Source: Orrella marina
GTDB lineage: Bacteria > Pseudomonadota > Gammaproteobacteria > Burkholderiales > Burkholderiaceae_B
Direction: 5' to 3'
Assembly (NCBI RefSeq): GCF_003058465.1
Contig: NZ_CP028901.1
Location: forward strand, 682,001-746,000
Length of the DNA: 64,000 bases
In this document: positions 4,022-42,143 of the stretch, one piece after another
How the letters are laid out: every line of letters begins with the position of its first letter
Position numbering within the stretch: position 1 is the stretch's first letter
Made by a program: the position numbers and the translations under genes
The notes under the pieces: generated by a model
The model's database searches: none
Told to the model about the DNA's origin: nothing
Seen by the model: only the letters and a program-made list of their open reading frames with translations

Positions 4022-4054
4022 TTTGCAGTGATAAGATTACCAATTTACTGCAAA
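4022..4054. promoter_or_regulatory. Inverted repeat upstream of pckG, possible operator
   Basis: TTTGCAGT (4022-4029) and ACTGCAAA (4047-4054) form a perfect 8-bp inverted repeat with a 17-bp spacer, ending 20 bp before the pckG start codon. The position and dyad symmetry suit a dimeric transcription factor. The regulator is unknown. Confidence 0.4.
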
Positions 4055-12052: not shown

Positions 12053-12694
12053 TCACTCTCGGTTCGGTACTCGTGGCGGTTTGGTCATGCCCTCGAAACA
12101 AGTGTGAATCAGCAATTCAACAATGTCATCGTCACTGAAGGCGCCGCCCGCTTTCAGAAAGTCCGCAACCGGGTCACATGAGCGCGAATAAATCGTGTAG
12201 AGAATGACTTCGGCAGGCAGTGAGGCTGACAGGTCACCTTTGGCTTGCGCTTGTTCAATCCATTCCCCGAGCACTTCGGTCAACCGGGTCAGACGCTCCA
12301 CATAGGGTTGGTGCTCGATCAATGTTTGCTGAATGCTGGAACGGGTTGATGGTAGCGAGGGCATGGTGCCGCTAAGGTGAATGCGCACGGCCCAGCGAAC
12401 GACAGCCTTGAGCTTTTCAATTGCGGACAGATGCTCGGACAGGGAGTTGGCAACCTCGAGCGAGTCATCCAGAAACCGTGTCATAGACGCCGCAGCAAGC
12501 GCCTCTTTGGATGCAAAGTGTTTGTAAAGACTGGCTTTGGCGATGCCCACTTCAGCAGCTACTTCATCCATGGTCATCAGGTCAAACCCTTTTTGGGCGA
12601 GCAGACGGTTGACGACGTCCAGAATCGCGTCTTCCCGGAACTTCAATTGTTGTGCCTTGAATGAGGCCTTCTTTCTGGCTGCTGGCGTTGGCAT
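12053..12694 (-). CDS. TetR/AcrR family transcriptional regulator
   Basis: A 213-residue TetR-type repressor. The N-terminal helix-turn-helix (about residues 20-65) has the family core T-M-D-E-V-A-x-E-V-G-I-A-K-A-S-L-Y-K-H-F-x-S-K-E. The C-terminal ligand and dimer domain is all-helical. I chose the ATG at 12694 because it puts the DNA-binding domain at the usual distance; the frame is open to 12751. It is transcribed divergently from the lipid-modification cluster starting at 12893, and the 48-bp palindrome lies between them. It is therefore the likely local regulator of itself and the cluster. The ligand is unknown; a fatty acid or acyl-CoA is an inference from context only. Confidence 0.88.
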   Translation of the reverse strand: MPTPAARKKASFKAQQLKFREDAILDVVNRLLAQKGFDLMTMDEVAAEVGIAKASLYKHFASKEALAAASMTRFLDDSLEVANSLSEHLSAIEKLKAVVRWAVRIHLSGTMPSLPSTRSSIQQTLIEHQPYVERLTRLTEVLGEWIEQAQAKGDLSASLPAEVILYTIYSRSCDPVADFLKAGGAFSDDDIVELLIHTCFEGMTKPPRVPNRE

Positions 12695-12760
12695 GTTTGC
12701 TGCCTCTTGTAAAAAACACATGGACACACAAAAAGCTTGTGTATCCCACAAAAATGGTTT

Positions 12761-12808
12761 CTAATCAGTTCAAACAAATACTGATCAGTATTTGTTTGAA
12801 CTGATTAG
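12761..12808. promoter_or_regulatory. Perfect 48-bp palindrome, probable TetR operator
   Basis: The two 24-bp arms (12761-12784 and 12785-12808) are exact reverse complements with no spacer. Three related 8-mers start exactly 20 bp apart: CTAATCAG (12761), CTGATCAG (12781) and CTGATTAG (12801). The site lies between divergent tetR (start 12694) and the first lipid-cluster gene (start 12893). Its size could hold more than one TetR dimer on one DNA face. Confidence 0.75.
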
Positions 12809-12892
12809 TTCAATTTAAAGAGACCCAAGTTTTTACAGAAATGATGCAGTTGCTGTCTAAAACCTGATGGTCGTCTTGCTACTCGAGAGTAA

Positions 12893-13495
12893 ATGTCGAT
12901 TATGCCTGTATCCACATCGTTTGACGATCAATCTGCAGCCGGTAAAGGGGTTCTGGACTCGCGCGAGTCTGATCAGAAGGGGGCGGCAGCGGCGCAGTCC
13001 GGTGAGCAGACTCCGTCCCAGGCGCAGCAGCTACCCAGGCACGTCCAGGCATTTGAGCCGGGAACCTGGACACTCAGTGGTTGTGGTGTCTTCAGCTGGA
13101 GCGTGTTTCGTCTGTACCGTGCCAGCCTGTTTGTTCAAGGAACTGTCGATTCTGGAAGGCCCTACGCCTTGTTGCTGTCTTATCTGCGCAAAGTAACCGC
13201 TCAGCAGATTGCCGACACATCCGTGCAACAGTTCGAGCGGCTCGGATTCGGTTCGTCAGAACAGCATCAGCAGTGGAGGAGTTTGCTCCTCGGGCTGTTG
13301 CCTGATGTCGCGCTGGGCGACCATTTGACAGGCCTTTTTTACCCGAATCAGAAAGTTGAATTCTTTGACGGTAACAAGCACCTGGGCTGCGTGGAGGATC
13401 CGGCGTTTGCACAAGCATTTGCAGCGATCTGGCTTGATCCCAGAACTCAGGGGCAGTCCTTGCGCAAGGCGCTGCTGGGGATAAGTGATGACTGA
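12893..13495 (+). CDS. Chalcone isomerase-like protein (first copy)
   Basis: A 200-residue protein whose C-terminal ~150 residues fit the bacterial chalcone-isomerase-like family (Chalcone_3). Shared features are a G-x-x-x-F-x-x-x-x-x-L-Y-x-A-S-L-F start, a G-D-x-L-T-G-x-F-Y-P segment and a final F-A-x-I-W-L-D-x-R-T. The first ~45 residues are Gln/Ser-rich and low complexity, with no signal peptide, so it is probably cytosolic. Bacterial members often accompany fatty-acid-modifying enzymes and may bind fatty acids rather than chalcones (family knowledge). Its end overlaps the oxidoreductase gene. It is the first gene after the palindrome. A related protein is encoded at 17213. Confidence 0.75.
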   Translation: MSIMPVSTSFDDQSAAGKGVLDSRESDQKGAAAAQSGEQTPSQAQQLPRHVQAFEPGTWTLSGCGVFSWSVFRLYRASLFVQGTVDSGRPYALLLSYLRKVTAQQIADTSVQQFERLGFGSSEQHQQWRSLLLGLLPDVALGDHLTGLFYPNQKVEFFDGNKHLGCVEDPAFAQAFAAIWLDPRTQGQSLRKALLGISDD

Positions 13496-14822
13496 GGGCA
13501 AGTCGCGCATTCCCTCGCCCGGCAGCCGGATTGCAGTTGTTGGCTCGGGCATTGCGGGCCTTGCGAGCGCCTGGCTCCTGTCCCGGCGCTACTCGGTGAC
13601 TTTGTTCGAAGCGGGGTCGTACTTTGGCGGACACTCCAACACGGTGGATGTCACGGTCGACGGCATCACGCATCCGGTTGACACCGGCTTTCTGGTTCAT
13701 AACGACCTCACGTATCCCAACCTGATTGCTTTATTCGAGCATCTTGGCGTACCTGTCCATCAAAGCGATATGTCATTCGGTGTATCAATTGAGGAGCCAG
13801 ACATTGAATGGGCAGGTTCGAACCTGGGCACAGTCTTTGCCCAGAAGAGCCTGATGTTCAATCCTCGTTTTATCGTGATGCTGAGCCAGATACTCAAGTT
13901 CAACCGCAACGCGAACCAGTATCTTCTGGAATGTTCGAACCAGCCAGATATCACGCTTGGGGAATTGCTCAAGCGCCATGGCTACGGGCGGGCGATGCAG
14001 TACTGGTACTTGCTGCCAATGGCAGCGGCGATCTGGTCCTCCTCTGTTCGTGACATTCTGTCGTTTCCGGCCGCGACGTTTCTGCGATTTTGTTTGAATC
14101 ACCGGTTATTGCAGATCGAAGGACGGCCTCAGTGGCGCACCGTGCTGGGTGGCTCGCGAGTCTACGTTCAGGCAATGCTCAAGTCGATTCAGGATGCGAG
14201 GCTTGACTGCCCGGTGCTGGAAATCAGTCGTCGTCACCTGATCAACGCAGAGTCTGGACAGCAGAGCGCTGGTATCGTCGTTCGCACCGCCCGTTCGACC
14301 GAGGTGTTCGACGCTGTTGTGATGGCGTGTCATGCGCCCACCAGTCTGGGGCTGATCGATGCTACCGATCAGGAGTGTGACATCTTAGGGGCTGTCCGTT
14401 ACCAGCCTAATGAAGCCGTTCTGCACACGGATCCAGCACTGTTGCCCCGACGCAAGAAAGTCTGGTCGGCCTGGAACTATCTGTCCACGCCGTCACGTGA
14501 TGATGCTCATGCAGTCGCTGTCAGTTATCTCATCAACTGCTTGCAGCCGTTGCCATTCACGACTCCGGTGATTGTGACCCTCAACAGTCACCGCCCGATT
14601 GATGAGTCCCGTGTCATCCGGCGTTTCAATTACGAACATCCGGTCATGGATCTGCCTGCAATTCGGGCCCAGCAGCGGCTTGGTGTGATCCAGGGGCAAC
14701 TGGGCACCTGGTTCTGCGGGGCCTGGTGTGGCTATGGATTTCATGAGGACGGACTGAAGTCAGCCATCGCCGTTGCCCGGGACTTCGGGATTGAACCGCC
14801 GTGGGCAGGAGTTGTGGCATGA
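13488..14822 (+). CDS. FAD-dependent oxidoreductase (amine oxidase/desaturase-like)
   Basis: A 444-residue flavoprotein. It has an N-terminal Rossmann motif (A-V-V-G-S-G-I-A-G-L-A-S-A-W-L-L), the E-A-G-S-Y-F-G-G-H second block and the T-G-F-L-V-H-N segment typical of the NAD/FAD-binding amine oxidase family found beside cfa genes. It may oxidise a modified acyl chain; in comparable clusters such enzymes act on methylated or cyclopropane fatty acids, but the reaction is not established here. The start overlaps the previous gene; GTG 13485 and ATG 13488 are adjacent, and ATG is preferred. Its stop overlaps the next start (ATGA). Confidence 0.85.
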   Translation: MTEGKSRIPSPGSRIAVVGSGIAGLASAWLLSRRYSVTLFEAGSYFGGHSNTVDVTVDGITHPVDTGFLVHNDLTYPNLIALFEHLGVPVHQSDMSFGVSIEEPDIEWAGSNLGTVFAQKSLMFNPRFIVMLSQILKFNRNANQYLLECSNQPDITLGELLKRHGYGRAMQYWYLLPMAAAIWSSSVRDILSFPAATFLRFCLNHRLLQIEGRPQWRTVLGGSRVYVQAMLKSIQDARLDCPVLEISRRHLINAESGQQSAGIVVRTARSTEVFDAVVMACHAPTSLGLIDATDQECDILGAVRYQPNEAVLHTDPALLPRRKKVWSAWNYLSTPSRDDAHAVAVSYLINCLQPLPFTTPVIVTLNSHRPIDESRVIRRFNYEHPVMDLPAIRAQQRLGVIQGQLGTWFCGAWCGYGFHEDGLKSAIAVARDFGIEPPWAGVVA

Positions 14823-15709
14823 GCAATGAGTTACCGGCGTCTGACAACCTGATCCGCTTTGCTCGTGCCGTGGTCATGCACAAGCGGCAAAAGCCGTTTA
14901 TCCACGCCTTTGTCTACAAGCTGTTCTGCATGCAGTTGCGGGTTGATCAGCTTGATCAGGTGGCGTTTCATGCGTCATCAGGCGGCTCATGGCTGTTTGG
15001 CGTGAATCGCCGCCGCCCGGTCAGCTTTATGAGTGCCGATCACGGAGATCGTCAGGGCACTGATCTGATGGGGTGGCTGGAGCGCACCTTACGTACAGCC
15101 GGACTAGAGCATCCTGGTGGTGCAACCTGGTTGCAGTGCTTTCCAAGGGTGTTTGGCTACGTCTTTAACCCGGTCAGCTTCTGGATGATGCATGACCGTC
15201 AGGGGGACCTGAAGCTGATTCTGGCCGAAGTGAATAACACCTTCGGGCAGAGCCACCAGTATGTGTTGCAGGCACCTGATCACGGTGTTATTGGACAGGG
15301 TGACGACCTGTTCTGTCGCAAAGTCTTCCATGTGTCTCCCTTCTGCGAGATCAAGGGGCACTACCGGTTTCGATACCAGGGCCAGATCACGGCTCCCCTC
15401 GCAACGGCACCCTCTATCTCGAACCGTGCCATGTCACTGGCTGAATCAACTTCCGCGCGTCAGTCCATGGCGATCGATTTCTTTGATGATGACGCCAGTG
15501 ATGTAGCGCTGCTGCGAACGGCAATCACGGTCGAACCGCAATCGTGGACCACAAGACGCGTGCTCGGTGCAGTCATGCGTATGCCATTCATGACCTTTGG
15601 CGTGATGGTCCGCATCCACTGGCATGCCTTCAAATTATGGCGCAAAGGGGCAGCGTTTCACCGGTTGCCTGCGCCACCGCAAGAAGAGGTGACCCGCAAT
15701 GTGCCATGA
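14819..15709 (+). CDS. DUF1365 family protein
   Basis: A 296-residue DUF1365 protein, a family of unknown biochemical role that almost always sits between an FAD amine oxidase-like gene and a cyclopropane-fatty-acid-synthase-like gene. Family blocks seen are V-M-H-x-R-x-x-P-x-x-H-x-F-x-Y at the N-terminus, F-G-Y-V-F-N-P-V-S-F-W near residue 115 and E-V-N-N-T-F-G. The start at 14819 overlaps the previous stop in an ATGA, so it is probably translated by coupling. No signal peptide is seen. It probably takes part in membrane lipid modification (inference from context). Confidence 0.88.
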   Translation: MSNELPASDNLIRFARAVVMHKRQKPFIHAFVYKLFCMQLRVDQLDQVAFHASSGGSWLFGVNRRRPVSFMSADHGDRQGTDLMGWLERTLRTAGLEHPGGATWLQCFPRVFGYVFNPVSFWMMHDRQGDLKLILAEVNNTFGQSHQYVLQAPDHGVIGQGDDLFCRKVFHVSPFCEIKGHYRFRYQGQITAPLATAPSISNRAMSLAESTSARQSMAIDFFDDDASDVALLRTAITVEPQSWTTRRVLGAVMRMPFMTFGVMVRIHWHAFKLWRKGAAFHRLPAPPQEEVTRNVP

Positions 15710-15880: not shown

Positions 15881-17101
15881 ATGAATGTCAATGAAGCTTC
15901 GATCAACACACTGTCCGTCCAGACGCTGCCCTGGTCTGCCCGTACGTTTGTCTCATTGCTGTCAAGGATCTCAGAAGGCTCTCTGACATTGATCGATCCG
16001 CAGGGCCGGTTCATGCTGCTCGGCAGGCAAGGGGCATTGCCACACGCCCAGCTCAAGATCCGTGACTGGCGGGCAGCATCGCTCATCATGCGACAGGCCG
16101 ATGTCGGGTTTGCGGAGTGCGTCCGACGCAACTGGGTGGATTGCCCGGATATGATGTCACTCTTCAGGCTCGCAATCCGTAACGAGGATTCGGTGAATGT
16201 GGTGCGCGGTAGTTGGTGGGCGCTGTTGCTGCGTCAGCTTGGGCACTGGGTGCTGCGAGACAACAGCCGCCGCGGTAGCCGTCGCAACATCCTTGCACAT
16301 TACGACCTCGGGAATGACTTTTACCGTCTATGGCTCGACGGGTCGATGAGCTATTCCGCAGCACTGTTTGAAGGGGATGACCAGCGCAGTCTGCCCGATG
16401 CACAGGCAGCGAAGTACGACCGTATGCTGGACCAACTCGACATCCAGCCGGGCCAGACACTGCTCGAGATTGGGTGCGGCTGGGGTGAACTCGCTGTGCG
16501 TGCCGCTCGAAGAGGTTTGAAAGTCAAAGGCGTCACGCTATCAGACGCGCAGCTAGCATGGGCACAAGAGCGGGTCAGACGCGAAGGGCTGGCTGCTCAG
16601 ATTGATCTTTCGATCTGCGACTACCGTGATATCACAGGTCAGTACGACCACATCATTTCGATCGAAATGTTCGAGGCAGTGGGCCTTCGTCACTGGCCCG
16701 GTTACTTCTCAGTGATTCGCGATCGTCTGAAGCCCGGTGGGCGAGCGGTTATCCAGACAATCGATATAGCGGATGCCCATTTTGATGCATACGTGCGTGG
16801 CACTGATTTCATTCAGCAATACATTTTCCCGGGCGGCATGCTGCCCAGCCCATCGCGATTCGAGTCTCTGGCCGACAACGCGGGCCTGAATGTGCAGGAT
16901 CGATTCAGTTTTGGTATCGATTATGCAAAAACACTGGCCTTGTGGGCGCAAGCCTTCGACACACACCAGGAAGACATTCAGGCGCAAGGGTTCGATGACA
17001 CCTTCATGCGGATCTGGCGCATGTATCTGGCCTATTGCGAAGCTGGATTTCGGGAAGGACGCACTGATGTCAAGCAATGGGTTCTGGCCAAGCATGCTTG
17101 A
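15881..17101 (+). CDS. Cyclopropane-fatty-acyl-phospholipid synthase-like SAM methyltransferase
   Basis: A 406-residue methyltransferase of the Cfa/CMAS family. The SAM-binding motif L-L-E-I-G-C-G-W-G-E-L lies near residue 200. The upstream substrate block H-Y-D-L-G-N-D-F-Y-x-L-W-L-D and the S-I-E-M-F-E-A-V-G block are conserved. Such enzymes add a methylene or methyl group from SAM to a double bond in membrane phospholipid acyl chains. Relatives in similar operons make cyclopropane or methylated acyl chains leading to furan fatty acids. An N-terminal ~100-residue domain precedes the catalytic fold. ATG 15881 follows a gagg ribosome site about 10 bp upstream. The CTTCA tract lies immediately before it. 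Confidence 0.9.
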   Translation: MNVNEASINTLSVQTLPWSARTFVSLLSRISEGSLTLIDPQGRFMLLGRQGALPHAQLKIRDWRAASLIMRQADVGFAECVRRNWVDCPDMMSLFRLAIRNEDSVNVVRGSWWALLLRQLGHWVLRDNSRRGSRRNILAHYDLGNDFYRLWLDGSMSYSAALFEGDDQRSLPDAQAAKYDRMLDQLDIQPGQTLLEIGCGWGELAVRAARRGLKVKGVTLSDAQLAWAQERVRREGLAAQIDLSICDYRDITGQYDHIISIEMFEAVGLRHWPGYFSVIRDRLKPGGRAVIQTIDIADAHFDAYVRGTDFIQQYIFPGGMLPSPSRFESLADNAGLNVQDRFSFGIDYAKTLALWAQAFDTHQEDIQAQGFDDTFMRIWRMYLAYCEAGFREGRTDVKQWVLAKHA

Positions 17102-17212
17102 TGGCCTTTATTCATTTCTTTGCCGGACGCGGTCGCTTGACGCGGCGAGCCAGTAAGAACGCAATGTTCCAGTCACCACTACTGTGTGCTGACGGGTAAG
17201 GAGAAGATCACC

Positions 17213-17983
17213 ATGCAAAGACATTCCAGCGTGCAGGGGCAGCCTGAGGTCAGTGGAGTGCGCGAGCAGAATACCCTGGTTAGCGCCATCGCAACCGCAA
17301 TTCTGGAAAAAGCCAATGACGGTTTCTTGCGGTGTGTGTCTTCTCTTGCACTGATAGCACCGAACTTGAAAAAGGTGCTAGGCGCTGCTGTGCTGGCAAG
17401 CCTGGCTGGCCTTGCGATGCCGGCATCAGGTTCACAACTCGCGAATCAGGATCGTGCGAACGGAGTTTCCGGCCACGACCGGGCGTCCGGGGGCGACCCC
17501 GTTGCAGGCGACGCGCTGAGTCAGACCCCGGCCTTTGGCTGGCATGCACTGGTTCCGCACGCCCGGCGAGTTGGACAGGGCCAGTTTCGTCGCTTCGGAT
17601 TCCTGATCTACGACGCCACGCTCCTGGCGCCCAACGGTCGCTATCAGCCTGACGAGCCTTTCGCACTGGAATTACGGTACGCGAGAACCATTAGCCGTGA
17701 CCAGATCATTGATGCGTCGCTTGACCAGATGCAGGCTCTGGGTGTGGATGTCGACCAGCACCCTGACTGGAAAGCCCAGCTCCATGGGGCCCTGATGGAC
17801 GTGCGAGCGGGCGATGTGCTGACTGGCGTTTACGTTCCGGGGCGGGGCAGCGGGATTTTTCATGAAGGAGTCAGGCTGGGAAGACTGGATGACGCGCTGG
17901 CACAGGCATTTTTTGCGATCTGGCTGGATCATCGCACCAGTGATCCTGACTTGCGCGCCGAGCTGCTTGGGCAGTCGGACTAA
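17213..17983 (+). CDS. Chalcone isomerase-like protein (second copy, with hydrophobic segment)
   Basis: A 256-residue protein with the same C-terminal fold as the gene at 12893; shared words include G-D-x-L-T-G-x-Y-V-P, F-F-A-I-W-L-D and H-R-T-S. It differs by an N-terminal extension carrying a hydrophobic segment (about residues 48-70, ending A-M-P-A-S-G-S). This could be a signal anchor or an export signal with an unusually long n-region. ATG 17213 has an aaggag ribosome site; an in-frame ATG at 17186 has none. The product may therefore act in the periplasm while the first copy acts in the cytosol (inference). The MFS gene starts 12 bp downstream. Confidence 0.75.
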   Translation: MQRHSSVQGQPEVSGVREQNTLVSAIATAILEKANDGFLRCVSSLALIAPNLKKVLGAAVLASLAGLAMPASGSQLANQDRANGVSGHDRASGGDPVAGDALSQTPAFGWHALVPHARRVGQGQFRRFGFLIYDATLLAPNGRYQPDEPFALELRYARTISRDQIIDASLDQMQALGVDVDQHPDWKAQLHGALMDVRAGDVLTGVYVPGRGSGIFHEGVRLGRLDDALAQAFFAIWLDHRTSDPDLRAELLGQSD

Positions 17984-17995
17984 GGGCCGGCTCAC

Positions 17996-19465
17996 GTGAA
18001 TCCGAGACCATCGCGCTCAGCATCAGGCACGCCAGATCTCCAGAGGCTGCCGTCTGCCGCCGGGCTTGCGGCCTACAGTGCACTGTCTTTTTCACTTGCC
18101 ATGGCGATGTTGCCGATCTACATGATCGCACCCAAGTTCTATGGGGATACGCTGGGTGTCAGTCTCGGCATGCTTGGCGCTGCACTGTTCGCCGTGCGTC
18201 TGGTCGACACTGTTCAGGATCCGTTGATCGGACAACTGGTGGACTGGCTGAGTGGGGTCCGGCGCGGATGGAGCGGGCTGTTGATCGCAGGTGCGTTTTT
18301 GCTGGCAGGGGGATTTGTCCTGCTGTTTCATGTGCCGGACGGGCTGAGTGAAACGTCGATTGTTCTCTGGATGGTGGCAGCACTCGTGCTGGTGTACACG
18401 GCTCACAGTCTGATGAACGTGTGCTACCTGAGTTGGGGTGCCAGACTGACGGACGACACCGGTGCCCGCGCTCGCGTTACTGGCTGGCGTGAAGCCGCCG
18501 GTGTGGTCGGTGTGGTGGTGGCGTCTATCCTGCCGGCAGTCTGGGCGGCAAGCGATGGTCCCGAGCGCGCTTACGGCGCATTTGCGTGGGTGTTTGCTGC
18601 CATTCTTGCGGTCACTGTGCTGATCACGTTGCTGGGGTCGCCGCGCCCCAGGATCGTCTTCACTCCTGAAATCAACGCAGACCGGCGCCAGCTTCAGCAT
18701 ACCGGTAACGACGGTTTTGCTCAGGCAGGACGAGTACGAGCAGGAGGACGAGAACGAGGACGATGGGCCCGGATGCTGGCGCCCTGGCGGGCCGCGTTAG
18801 GTCGTCAGACCGTTGGTCCGGATCGCTGGTTGTGGCGCCTTTATGCGTTTTATCTGTTTAACGCAACGGCGGCGGCATTGCCGGCGACATTGATCCTGTT
18901 CTATGTCGAAGATGTGATTGAACGGCCTGCCCAGGTCGGGCTGTTTCTGGGCGCGTATTTTTTGGCGGGACTGACGGCGCTTGGACTCTGGGTCCGGGTC
19001 TCAGACCGTCTGGGCAAGGCCCGGACCTGGGCGCTTGGATCGCTGATAGCTGGAGTGGGGCTTTGTCTGGCTGCGTTTCTAGGCACAGGCGACACCATTG
19101 CTTATCTGTTCGTCTGTGTCTTGACCGGCACTGCACTGGGCGTGGATCTGGCATTGCCCCCGGCCATGCTGGCCGATGCGATCCGGCCAGAGCAACGTGG
19201 CAGTACGGGGCTTTACTTCGGGGTCTGGGCGTTCGTCGCCAAATTTGCGTTGGCGGTATCAGCCGGGGTGTCGCTACCCGTGCTGGCCGCGCTTGGGTAC
19301 GAGCCCGGACAGCCGGCAAGCGCCACATCGCTGGCACTTGTCTACGCCTTCATGCCGATTGTTTTCAAGGCAGTGGCAGCAGTCTGTCTCGGGCGCAGAC
19401 TGCTCAGTCCGGACACGGTCCGGCAATCGCCAAAAAACATATCTATCCATTCACGTACTGATTAA
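17996..19465 (+). CDS. MFS transporter, GPH (glycoside-pentoside-hexuronide)-like
   Basis: A 489-residue membrane protein with about 12 hydrophobic segments in two halves separated by a charged loop near residues 220-270. The N-terminal block R-L-V-D-T-V-Q-D-P-L-I-G-Q-L-V-D is the GPH/MelB-type signature for cation-coupled symporters. GPH-like members occur in lipid-modification operons of this kind, where the cargo is unknown and may be lipid-related rather than sugar (inference). The start codon is GTG at 17996. Spacings of 12 bp before and 14 bp after suggest one transcript with its neighbours. Confidence 0.83.
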   Translation: MNPRPSRSASGTPDLQRLPSAAGLAAYSALSFSLAMAMLPIYMIAPKFYGDTLGVSLGMLGAALFAVRLVDTVQDPLIGQLVDWLSGVRRGWSGLLIAGAFLLAGGFVLLFHVPDGLSETSIVLWMVAALVLVYTAHSLMNVCYLSWGARLTDDTGARARVTGWREAAGVVGVVVASILPAVWAASDGPERAYGAFAWVFAAILAVTVLITLLGSPRPRIVFTPEINADRRQLQHTGNDGFAQAGRVRAGGRERGRWARMLAPWRAALGRQTVGPDRWLWRLYAFYLFNATAAALPATLILFYVEDVIERPAQVGLFLGAYFLAGLTALGLWVRVSDRLGKARTWALGSLIAGVGLCLAAFLGTGDTIAYLFVCVLTGTALGVDLALPPAMLADAIRPEQRGSTGLYFGVWAFVAKFALAVSAGVSLPVLAALGYEPGQPASATSLALVYAFMPIVFKAVAAVCLGRRLLSPDTVRQSPKNISIHSRTD

Positions 19466-19479
19466 GGGAGAGCCAAAGC

Positions 19480-20022
19480 ATGAAACTCAAATCCATACTG
19501 GCTGCAACCAGCGCAGCTGTTCTGACGGCATGCGCAAGCGTTGATGTCGAACAGTACGCCAGTGAAGAGCCCAGGCTCGTCATGTCGGAATTCTTTGACG
19601 GGAAGATGGATGCCTGGGGCATTTTTCAGAAACGCAACGGCGAGCTTGCCCGGCGCTTTCATGTCGAGATCATTGGCACATGGGAAAGTCCGACCGAGGG
19701 CCAGCTCGATGAGTATTTCACCTACGCGGATGGTGAGAAGTCGCGCCGCTTATGGAAACTCAGCCAGCAGGCGGATGGCACCTGGCACGGTACGGCCGAT
19801 GATGTCGAAGGCGTTGCGATTGGCAAGGTAGCGGGTAATGCATTGCACTGGAAGTATGTCCTGCAACTGCCGGTTGACGGAAAGGTCTACAACGTTGACT
19901 TTGACGACTGGATGTGGCTCATGGATGGCAATACCATGATGAATCGTTCAGTCATGTCGAAGTACGGATTCAGACTGGGTGAAGTGTCGCTACTGTTTCG
20001 CAAACGGGAGCCCGGTTCGTGA
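19480..20022 (+). CDS. DUF3833 family lipoprotein
   Basis: A 180-residue DUF3833 protein. The first 18 residues form a lipoprotein signal peptide with lipobox L-T-A-C, so the mature protein is lipid-anchored in the periplasm. Family blocks seen are F-F-D-G-x-x-x-A-W-G-I-F-Q, R-R-F-H-V-E-I-x-G-T-W and D-F-D-D-W-M-W-L-M-D. Its function is unknown, but it recurs in cfa/SDR operons. ATG 19480 follows a gggagag ribosome site. Its stop overlaps the GTG start of the SDR gene. Confidence 0.88.
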   Translation: MKLKSILAATSAAVLTACASVDVEQYASEEPRLVMSEFFDGKMDAWGIFQKRNGELARRFHVEIIGTWESPTEGQLDEYFTYADGEKSRRLWKLSQQADGTWHGTADDVEGVAIGKVAGNALHWKYVLQLPVDGKVYNVDFDDWMWLMDGNTMMNRSVMSKYGFRLGEVSLLFRKREPGS

Positions 20023-20816
20023 GCATATTCGCTAGCATCTGGCGTAAGTTGAATGCGCCGGTGACAGACTGGTCAGGTCGCAAGGTCTGGATCATTGGTG
20101 CGTCAAGTGGAATCGGGGCAGCGCTGGCGAGCGCAATGCTCGAGCAGGGGGCAAGAGTGGCCATTTCGGCCAGGCGAGTGTCCATGCTGGAGGGGATTGC
20201 CCAAGATTATGAACACGCGCTTGTCGTGCCGCTGGATGTCCTGGACGAACGATCCTGGGATCAGGCACTCGAGCGGATTGATCGCGAGTTTGGCGAGATC
20301 GATCTGGTCGTTTTCGGTGCAGCTCGTTATGATCCCCGGCACGTCTGGGATCTGGATCTTCAGAAAGTTCAGGCGAGCTATGATCTGAACGTTGTTTGTG
20401 CCTATCGGGCGGCTGCCAGACTGGCTCCGCGGCTGATCGCACAGGGGCATGGCGGGATCGCCATGATAGGGAGCATCTCGGGCTATACCGGCTTGCCCAG
20501 AGCGATCATCTACGGAGCCACCAAAGCGGCGTTGCAGAATCTGACTGAAACGCTGTATCTGGAACTTGCTCCCAAGGGTGTATCGGTTTATCTCATCTCG
20601 CCAGGTTTCGTTAGAACCCCGATGACGCAGGCCAACGATTTCGAGATGCCTGGACTGATGACACCGCAGGCTGCCGCACAGGCCATTCTGAAGGGATTTG
20701 CCAGGGGGCTGTTTGAAATCCGGTTTCCGACCGGCTTTGCCAATGTACTCCGGCTTGTGAGCAGACTGCCATATCGCATCCGGTTCGCCTTGCTTAACCG
20801 TGTAACCAGGGCTTAG
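20019..20816 (+). CDS. Short-chain dehydrogenase/reductase
   Basis: A 265-residue classical SDR. The cofactor motif G-A-S-S-G-I-G lies near residue 28, the catalytic Ser in I-G-S-I-S-G near residue 150 and the Y-G-A-T-K catalytic pair near residue 165. It catalyses NAD(P)-dependent oxidoreduction of an unknown substrate, presumably an acyl or lipid intermediate of the cluster. The GTG start at 20019 overlaps the preceding TGA, so it is translationally coupled to the DUF3833 gene. The C-terminal ~35 residues are hydrophobic and basic, which could allow membrane association. Confidence 0.9.
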   Translation: MSIFASIWRKLNAPVTDWSGRKVWIIGASSGIGAALASAMLEQGARVAISARRVSMLEGIAQDYEHALVVPLDVLDERSWDQALERIDREFGEIDLVVFGAARYDPRHVWDLDLQKVQASYDLNVVCAYRAAARLAPRLIAQGHGGIAMIGSISGYTGLPRAIIYGATKAALQNLTETLYLELAPKGVSVYLISPGFVRTPMTQANDFEMPGLMTPQAAAQAILKGFARGLFEIRFPTGFANVLRLVSRLPYRIRFALLNRVTRA

Positions 20817-20960: not shown

Positions 20961-21467
20961 ATGGTTGATAGAATGGTTTCGGGCTCTAGCCAGACGTCCG
21001 GTACTGGCCAGCGAGTCAAGCGTGAAGAGCAGTCGGCTAGAGCACACCGTATCATCGATTGGTTTGAAGCGCTCAGACCTGATACGCTGGACAGTATAGC
21101 CACGGTCTATGGCCCGAACGCCCGGTTTCGGGATCCTTTCAATGACGTCAGCGGTTTGAGATCGATCAGACAGATTTATGCGCACATGTTCGAATCTCTG
21201 GAGAATCCCAGGTTTACGGTGACTGAATCAGTCGAGCAGGCAAGTCACCTGTGCGTTGTATGGATGTTTCAGTTTAGCTGGCGCGGGCGTCCGATCGAGT
21301 TTGAAGGTACAACCTGGTTTGACCTTGATGAGCGAGGCTTAATCTCCAGACACCGCGATTTCTGGGATGTTTCTCAAGGCGTTTACGAGCGATTACCAGT
21401 ACTTGGTACGGTACTGCGCGTGCTGCGCAGGAAAATGGCGACACCGGGTTTGCTTTCTGACGCGTGA
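20961..21467 (+). CDS. Nuclear transport factor 2-like (SnoaL) protein
   Basis: A 168-residue protein with an NTF2/SnoaL-like cone fold signature: Y-G-P-N-A-R-F-R-D-P-F-N-D-V-x-G, I-Y-x-H-M-F, and a late F-E-G-T-T-W-F-D-L-D-x-x-G-L-I-S-x-H-R-D-F-W-D. The last pattern is characteristic of members found beside SDR and cfa genes. It may be an isomerase or a ligand-binding accessory protein. The 144-bp gap after the SDR gene is larger than others in the cluster, so it may have its own promoter. It is the last gene of the cluster on this strand. Confidence 0.85.
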   Translation: MVDRMVSGSSQTSGTGQRVKREEQSARAHRIIDWFEALRPDTLDSIATVYGPNARFRDPFNDVSGLRSIRQIYAHMFESLENPRFTVTESVEQASHLCVVWMFQFSWRGRPIEFEGTTWFDLDERGLISRHRDFWDVSQGVYERLPVLGTVLRVLRRKMATPGLLSDA

Positions 21468-42075: not shown

Positions 42076-42143
42076 AACAGGCAGGCCCGGACATCTGGTC
42101 CGGGCCTGCCTGTTGAGCCTGTTGAGCCTGTTGAGGCTGTTGG
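42076..42143. repeat. Long hairpin followed by 9-bp tandem repeats
   Basis: aacaggcaggcccgga (42076-42091) pairs perfectly with tccgggcctgcctgtt (42099-42114) over a 7-nt loop. The 3' arm runs into 9-bp repeats tgttgagcc (42111-42119, 42120-42128, one mismatch 42129-42137, then partial). There is no T tract. The intergenic region 41863-42201 contains nothing else that I recognise. Confidence 0.8.

Follow-up and report, generated by a model that had tools for sequence, protein, structure and literature searches.

What does a perfect 48-bp palindrome do between a tetR gene and a divergent cluster of lipid genes? A sequence-only reading of a 64,000-nucleotide stretch of Orrella marina DNA (the window, 64 kb) had described such an element, with exact 24-bp arms and three 8-mers in a 20-bp phasing, and had taken it for an unusually long TetR operator that invites two or more cooperative dimers. 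The symmetry was borne out, as positions 12761–12808 equal their own reverse complement and the arms (12761–12784 and 12785–12808, 24 nt each) are 100% complementary with no loop. Since the second-longest loop-free palindrome of the window has arms of only 9 bp, this structure lies far beyond chance. When loops of up to 11 nt are allowed, the second longest dyad of the window is found at 42076–42114, where perfect 17-bp inverted arms enclose a loop of 5 nt. The three 8-mers CTAATCAG, CTGATCAG, and CTGATTAG indeed start at 12761, 12781, and 12801, 20 bp apart, and the palindrome is flanked, as claimed, by the gene starts of tetR (12694, minus strand) and of the lipid cluster (12893, plus strand), in a gap of 198 bp with a GC content of 36%. 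The genes around the site are the following.

12053–12694, minus strand: tetR, TetR/AcrR-family regulator of 213 aa, ATG at 12694, predicted binder of the boxes
12893–13495, plus strand: chalcone-isomerase-like protein (PF16036), ATG at 12893, first gene of the divergent operon
13485–14822, plus strand: FAD-dependent oxidoreductase
14801–15709, plus strand: DUF1365 protein
15881–17101, plus strand: cyclopropane-fatty-acid-synthase-type methyltransferase
17186–17983, plus strand: second chalcone-isomerase-like protein
17996–19465, plus strand: MFS symporter of the GPH type (MFS_2 above its cut-off, GPH model below its own curated one)
19480–20022, plus strand: DUF3833 protein
20019–20816, plus strand: short-chain dehydrogenase
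20961–21467, plus strand: SnoaL-like protein, probable operon end

The spacing of the genes between 12893 and 21467 suggests that they form one operon, in which the two chalcone-isomerase-like proteins (12893–13495 and 17186–17983) bracket the oxidoreductase, DUF1365, and methyltransferase genes; a DUF1365 domain is also present in UfaO of Rhodobacter (PMC7380195). The tetR product matches Pfam TetR_N (PF00440) at residues 24–69 with 56.3 bits against a cut-off of 24. Its AlphaFold2 model (mean pLDDT 88.9) is all-helical, and the PDB matches listed for this fold are TetR-type regulators, with FadR of Bacillus subtilis at the top (E 3.3e-6, TMq 0.68), while the matches of a PDB sequence search were mostly confined to the helix-turn-helix part. 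The tetR leader contains an 11-pair hairpin at 12722–12746, GGATACACAAGCTTTTTGTGTGTCC on the minus strand, and ACACAA/TTGTG dyads similar to it adjoin box 1 in two related loci (L014 and L023). The assignment of a sigma-70 promoter was rejected, as a single weak minus-strand site was found against 0.5 expected and its hexamers were unconvincing.

Comparison of the loci of relatives showed that the recurring unit is a 10-mer rather than an 8-mer. The site comprises the following elements.

12760–12769: box 1, TCTAATCAGT, tetR-proximal; a first base T instead of A is common at box 1 of close relatives
12780–12789: box 2, ACTGATCAGT, a perfect 10-bp palindrome and the center of the 48-bp dyad
12800–12809: box 3, ACTGATTAGT, operon-proximal
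12761–12808: perfect palindrome, consisting of the three boxes minus the outermost bases and two mutually reverse-complementary 10-bp spacers

Box 2 together with its flanks makes up an 18-bp dyad, AAATACTGATCAGTATTT, and the long dyad ends at 12761 and 12808 because the T at 12760 cannot pair with the T at 12809. A scan of the whole 4.23-Mb genome for CTRATYAG-N12-CTRATYAG without mismatch returned this site only. By the raw three-box score the overlapping or neighboring places at 12780 and 12841 reach 17 and 16, and a score of 15 is also attained at 4027 and 34486 in the window. Two further full boxes, ACCTGATGGT (12862–12871) and ACTCGAGAGT (12881–12890), lie at a 19-bp pitch, 62 and 81 bp beyond box 3 and thus roughly in phase, and form the tied second-best box pair of the window. 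No preferred offset of downstream boxes was seen in 49 loci of relatives, and this pair is either a private extension or chance.

TetR homologues were detected at E ≤ 1e-15 in 53 of the 268 genomes of the family, and 52 of these were scored, one (G263, 45 residues only) being omitted. The scored loci comprised 40 close ones (TetR identity >60%) and 12 distant ones (about 45%). A wider set covered 80 of at least 589 relatives, from which 53 loci of other Burkholderiales (L085–L137) were used, while L058–L084, largely repeats of genomes already counted, were set aside. The divergent neighbor of tetR is the chalcone-isomerase-like gene in all 40 close loci, and no such neighbor was detected in any of the 12 distant ones. 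When the intergenic regions beside orthologous tetR genes were compared, a check which the sequence-only reading had itself proposed, the boxes and their spacing of about 20 bp proved to be kept: what recurs is a set of three ACTNNNNAGT-like boxes about 20 bp apart. The perfect 48-bp symmetry was absent from all 51 other loci. A three-box score of at least 15 was reached by 39 of the 40 close loci, 10 of the 12 distant ones, and 24 of the 53 from other Burkholderiales, against 8 of 800, 1 of 240, and 3 of 1,060 Markov-shuffled regions, respectively (≤1%); since the loci are related, these shuffles and the Fisher tests below overstate independence, and the figures serve to rank effects. Among the 29 loci of other Burkholderiales scoring below 15, 26 lie beside genes that were not recognized, while 14 of the 16 loci in which tetR has a fasciclin neighbor carry the array. 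In one locus scoring below 15 in the scored stretch (L030), inspection by eye found the boxes further out, separated from tetR by about ten imperfect 19-bp tandem repeats.

The spacing was examined by a fixed-pitch test and by counting box pairs. In the close loci, 28 of 40 responded at 20 bp, four at 21 bp, and no more than three at any other pitch between 12 and 31 bp. In the 12 distant loci eight responded at 20 bp and likewise eight at 23 bp, and in the 53 loci of other Burkholderiales the counts were eight, nine, and eight at 19, 20, and 21 bp, with five at 14 bp. Judged by these counts, the close group has a sharply defined pitch, which broadens in the other loci. With one mismatch allowed, the 40 close loci yielded 45 box pairs at a distance of 20 bp, where about 0.2 would be expected for any one distance, and a second peak of 16 appeared at 40 bp. 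By a lax count, the arrays range from two to perhaps five boxes at a pitch of about 20 bp. In eight of the 53 loci of other Burkholderiales (L090, L091, L096, L111, L115, L124, L128, and L136) the motif TTGAC[AT] straddles two boxes and TTCA[CA]A follows the next box in every case; in these loci, a promoter is likely to be buried in the array with the boxes over its −35 element, an arrangement that we do not transfer to 12761–12808.

To which symmetry a regulator would be fitted was analyzed in 174 boxes from 58 de-duplicated loci chosen by a score of at least 15. The outer ACY and RGT letters of the box are selected by construction, while its interior is unselected, and this interior reads R-A-T-Y, which gives the palindromic consensus ACYRATYRGT. 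The flanks of the same box are complementary at offset 1 more often than in permuted pairings (0.46 vs. 0.33, with none of 2,000 permutations as high) and also at offset 3 (p 0.0175), and are not raised at offsets 2, 4, 5, and 6. Across the spacers, complementarity shows a weak excess at offset 1 (0.41 vs. 0.35, p 0.07) and falls below permuted pairing at offsets 2–6. One dimer per box is favored because the flanks within a box are complementary and pairing across the spacers is mostly below the permuted level. The claim of two or more dimers thus keeps its multiplicity, but the symmetry speaks for a single dimer on each box, three in all rather than two.

An alternative arrangement, which we consider unlikely, has two dimers, each sitting between neighboring boxes on AGT-N10-ACT half-sites. 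AGT and ACT facing each other across a spacer do form an inverted repeat, the nearly fixed pitch would suit bridging, and the slight excess at offset 1 across the spacers goes the same way; the deficit at offsets 2–6 and the clear excess within boxes at offsets 1 and 3, however, do not. Moreover, L090 carries a 20-bp dyad, TGTGAACT-CATC-AGTTCACA, that is centered on a box and complete except for the four central bases, a box-centered dyad that L091 and L136 approach, and in the crystal structure of DarR one dimer is centered on the same core (PMC10636190).

DarR, a TetR-family protein of mycobacteria and rhodococci, recognizes the operator ATACT(N)4AGTAT, in which one dimer is centered on the box, the C:G pair is contacted by Lys44 and the T before it by Gly45, and further DNA contacts include Tyr48, Ser53, and Lys54 (PMC10636190). 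The ACT-N4-AGT core is common to both systems, ACYRATYRGT containing the recognition core of DarR. When the residues were placed by eye, Lys44, Tyr48, Ser53, and Lys54 of DarR corresponded to K53, Y57, S62, and K63 of the present protein, whereas Thr43, Gly45, and Tyr49 were replaced by A52, A54, and K58. The position of Gly45 is Ala in the close group and Pro in four of the five distant homologues aligned, and the base-contacting Lys–Gly pair of DarR, whose Gly is essential there, is not kept. Among the 174 boxes, the C and G are 94–97% conserved, partly through the selection of loci, and the preceding T only 52%; the retention of K53 and the replacement of Gly45 would fittingly match a conserved C and G yet a loose preceding T. 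DarR differs in two further respects: it places two dimers on palindromes that overlap within a single 20-bp site, while here three separate boxes stand 20 bp apart, and it binds cyclic nucleotides, a kind of ligand of which there is no sign here.

That the perfect symmetry of the whole is a signal in itself, as a cruciform or as the seat of a single large symmetric complex, we regard as very unlikely. The symmetry is complete here and one strand by itself is predicted to fold strongly (DNA z-score −10), but the perfect dyad is missing from all 39 other close loci. In the 22 loci spaced 20/20, fully symmetric spacers (10/10) were found in this genome only; a 10/10 spacer match occurred once in 1,376 pairings, presumably the pairing of this locus with itself. 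The spacer complementarity of the other 21 loci has a mean of 4.6 of 10 against 4.3 for shuffled spacers (sd 0.28), a value so near to the shuffled one that, within the set of loci examined, the complete 48-bp dyad is specific to this lineage. The idea of a long TetR operator with several sites is well supported by the comparison, but the perfect palindrome is not a conserved trait. The 48-bp perfection resembles a finishing touch given to the three-box array in this lineage and dispensable for function. Imperfect palindromes can be made symmetric by quasi-palindrome correction, which is perhaps the source of the perfect symmetry.

The assignment of the boxes to this TetR was examined in natural controls. 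About 60 genomes of the family have the FAD gene and no TetR match; 20 of their regions were fetched and 19 scored, the remaining one being 184 bp long. None of the 19 tetR-less copies of the lipid cluster reached 15 (maximum 14.4), where the scored stretch lies upstream of the FAD gene and so differs from the tetR-side stretch, with the gene start set by default in four of the 19. Three tetR-less loci (L139, L142, and L143) have a short stretch like the downstream end of the array, a remnant as would be expected after loss.

A second kind of locus is offered by the fasciclin gene, which adjoins tetR in 16 of the 53 loci of other Burkholderiales. Fasciclin genes occur in 34 of the 268 genomes of the family, of which 30 were examined, the other four being tetR-less. 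An upstream array scoring at least 15 was present in six of seven genomes with tetR (the exception is G188) and in none of 23 without it (Fisher p 1.2e-5); in four of the six positives fasciclin and tetR are no more than about 4 kb apart, and these are tied to linkage. In G116 the fasciclin gene is itself the divergent neighbor of tetR, and in G126 the boxed fasciclin gene is on a contig other than that of tetR, with weaker boxes. In O. marina, also one of the six, the fasciclin gene lies about 83 kb from tetR, with full boxes at 610810 and 610830 of the contig and a weak third one. Because the arrays track the presence of tetR at both the lipid cluster and the fasciclin loci, the boxes are assigned to TetR, and by the same comparison this TetR probably also controls the distant fasciclin gene, using the two additional boxes that stand in phase there. 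Evidence for a broad regulon in O. marina was not obtained, as the three-box pattern with up to three mismatches matched at three places, the present site among them, against one for the reversed control, and the other two overlap at 1001829–1001898, which resembles a 10-bp tandem repeat; these ACTTTCCAGT-like repeats stand in tandem in a layout unlike an operator. The weakness of the third box let the fasciclin site escape the pattern. A family-wide scan with three boxes was discarded as evidence, since 62 of the 268 genomes matched and many genomes gave matches to the reversed control as well.

That the boxes serve a different regulator, for example an ECF sigma factor or a protein of the MerR/LitR type, appears highly improbable. 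LitR-class light regulators govern ufaM genes in Pseudomonas (PMC9758184), and in this genome a MerR gene is divergent to the boxed fasciclin gene. The boxes, however, track tetR at two kinds of locus and beside tetR genes with varied neighbors, and the LitR-class consensus, T(G/A)TACA, differs from them (PMC9758184). The MerR-family gene in question occupies positions 309–1307 of the extracted locus (about 609716–610714 of the contig), and TetR and a MerR-type regulator may meet at the fasciclin gene.

An intrinsic terminator, a small RNA gene, or a mobile repeat is scarcely credible: a terminator scan flags the stem and five of the eight following bases, TTCAATTT, are T, but this tail is not continuous, the stem is rich in AT (five GC pairs of 20 counted, then TTCAATTTAA), and the site lies between two divergent gene starts and not gene ends, while the Rfam matches, microRNA-like and sub-threshold, include none at gathering score, and this genome has a single copy.

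Considering these results, we hold it highly probable that 12760–12809 is a three-box operator of the adjacent TetR, with a dimer on each box, by which tetR and the lipid operon would be repressed until a ligand arrives. The comparison of loci brings out the boxes, their pitch, the symmetry of each box, and the association with TetR, and from these we infer that TetR binds there, that three dimers occupy the site cooperatively and repress, and that a ligand releases them. One TetR dimer would occupy each ACYRATYRGT box, and the spacing of 20 bp, close to two helical turns (1.9 turns), would place the three dimers on nearly the same face of the DNA, where side by side they would cover about 50–60 bp of the promoter region. 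The bound dimers would block the divergent promoter region and keep tetR and the lipid operon off, and a ligand, which may be a lipid or an acyl-CoA, would free them and lead to derepression. A lipid ligand is plausible, as the best matches of the modeled fold are FadR-type fatty-acid regulators.

Several TetR dimers on one operator are familiar from QacR, CprB, and EthR; those of QacR, two in number, and of CprB share a single palindrome in overlapping positions. The present site resembles all three in that more than one TetR dimer is predicted per operator and differs from QacR and CprB in its non-overlapping boxes, which are separate and 19–21 bp apart when compared with the overlapping sites of the QacR and DarR type, although each box may hold one dimer or two. 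FasR of Mycobacterium tuberculosis is a TetR-like lipid regulator that acts on three inverted repeats in one promoter region (PMC7382501, PMC7652896). The likeness is that of a TetR regulator of lipid genes on three inverted repeats; as described, FasR is an activator that is released by long-chain acyl-CoA, whereas repression is proposed here. The principle of three inverted repeats under a TetR protein is therefore already known (PMC7382501). In the literature searched, mostly papers outside subscription, neither this TetR regulator nor a three-box TetR array of 20-bp pitch was found described, and the conserved non-overlapping array and its regulon likewise did not turn up. A paper on the tetR-pqi locus of Acidovorax avenae was rejected as a precedent, as it concerns a paraquat-inducible cluster and its main text contains neither "palindrom" nor "binding site" (PMC4204640).

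The genes under the boxes resemble by family name the singlet-oxygen regulon of RpoE/ChrR in Rhodobacter sphaeroides, which includes RSP_1091, RSP_1090 (UfaO, DUF1365), and the GPH symporter RSP_1089 as well as the SDR RSP_1087, cfaS, and the fasciclin RSP_1409 (PMC7074977, PMC7380195). DUF1365, GPH symporter, SDR, Cfa-type methyltransferase, and fasciclin recur here, matched by family name, and the furan-fatty-acid-type genes and the fasciclin gene, again families matched by name, have the boxes in common; the difference is that an ECF sigma factor and its anti-sigma govern the regulon there and apparently TetR boxes here. The best match to ChrR (TIGR02451) in this genome has 30.8 bits against a cut-off of 124.5, and ChrR exceeded the cut-off in three of the 268 genomes of the family, none of which has tetR. 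By analogy, this suggests that TetR may have replaced the sigma-E/ChrR regulator here, and since other tetR-less genomes also lack ChrR above the cut-off, further regulators must exist.

It is a tentative view, which we hold at somewhat less than even chances, that a Burkholderiales TetR with phased arrays of DarR-like boxes took over the furan-fatty-acid/fasciclin regulon, run by sigma-E/ChrR in Rhodobacter, and works there as a multi-dimer assembly. If true, the number of boxes would set the sharpness of the promoter switch as the dimers build a one-sided filament. For a TetR regulator that occurs in many Burkholderiales, the analysis predicts an operator code and a regulon of two loci, and links this regulator to genes like those by which Rhodobacter makes its singlet-oxygen-quenching furan lipids. 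The natural arrays of two, three, or more boxes, all at one pitch, would provide a test bed for switch-like repression from phased dimer sites.
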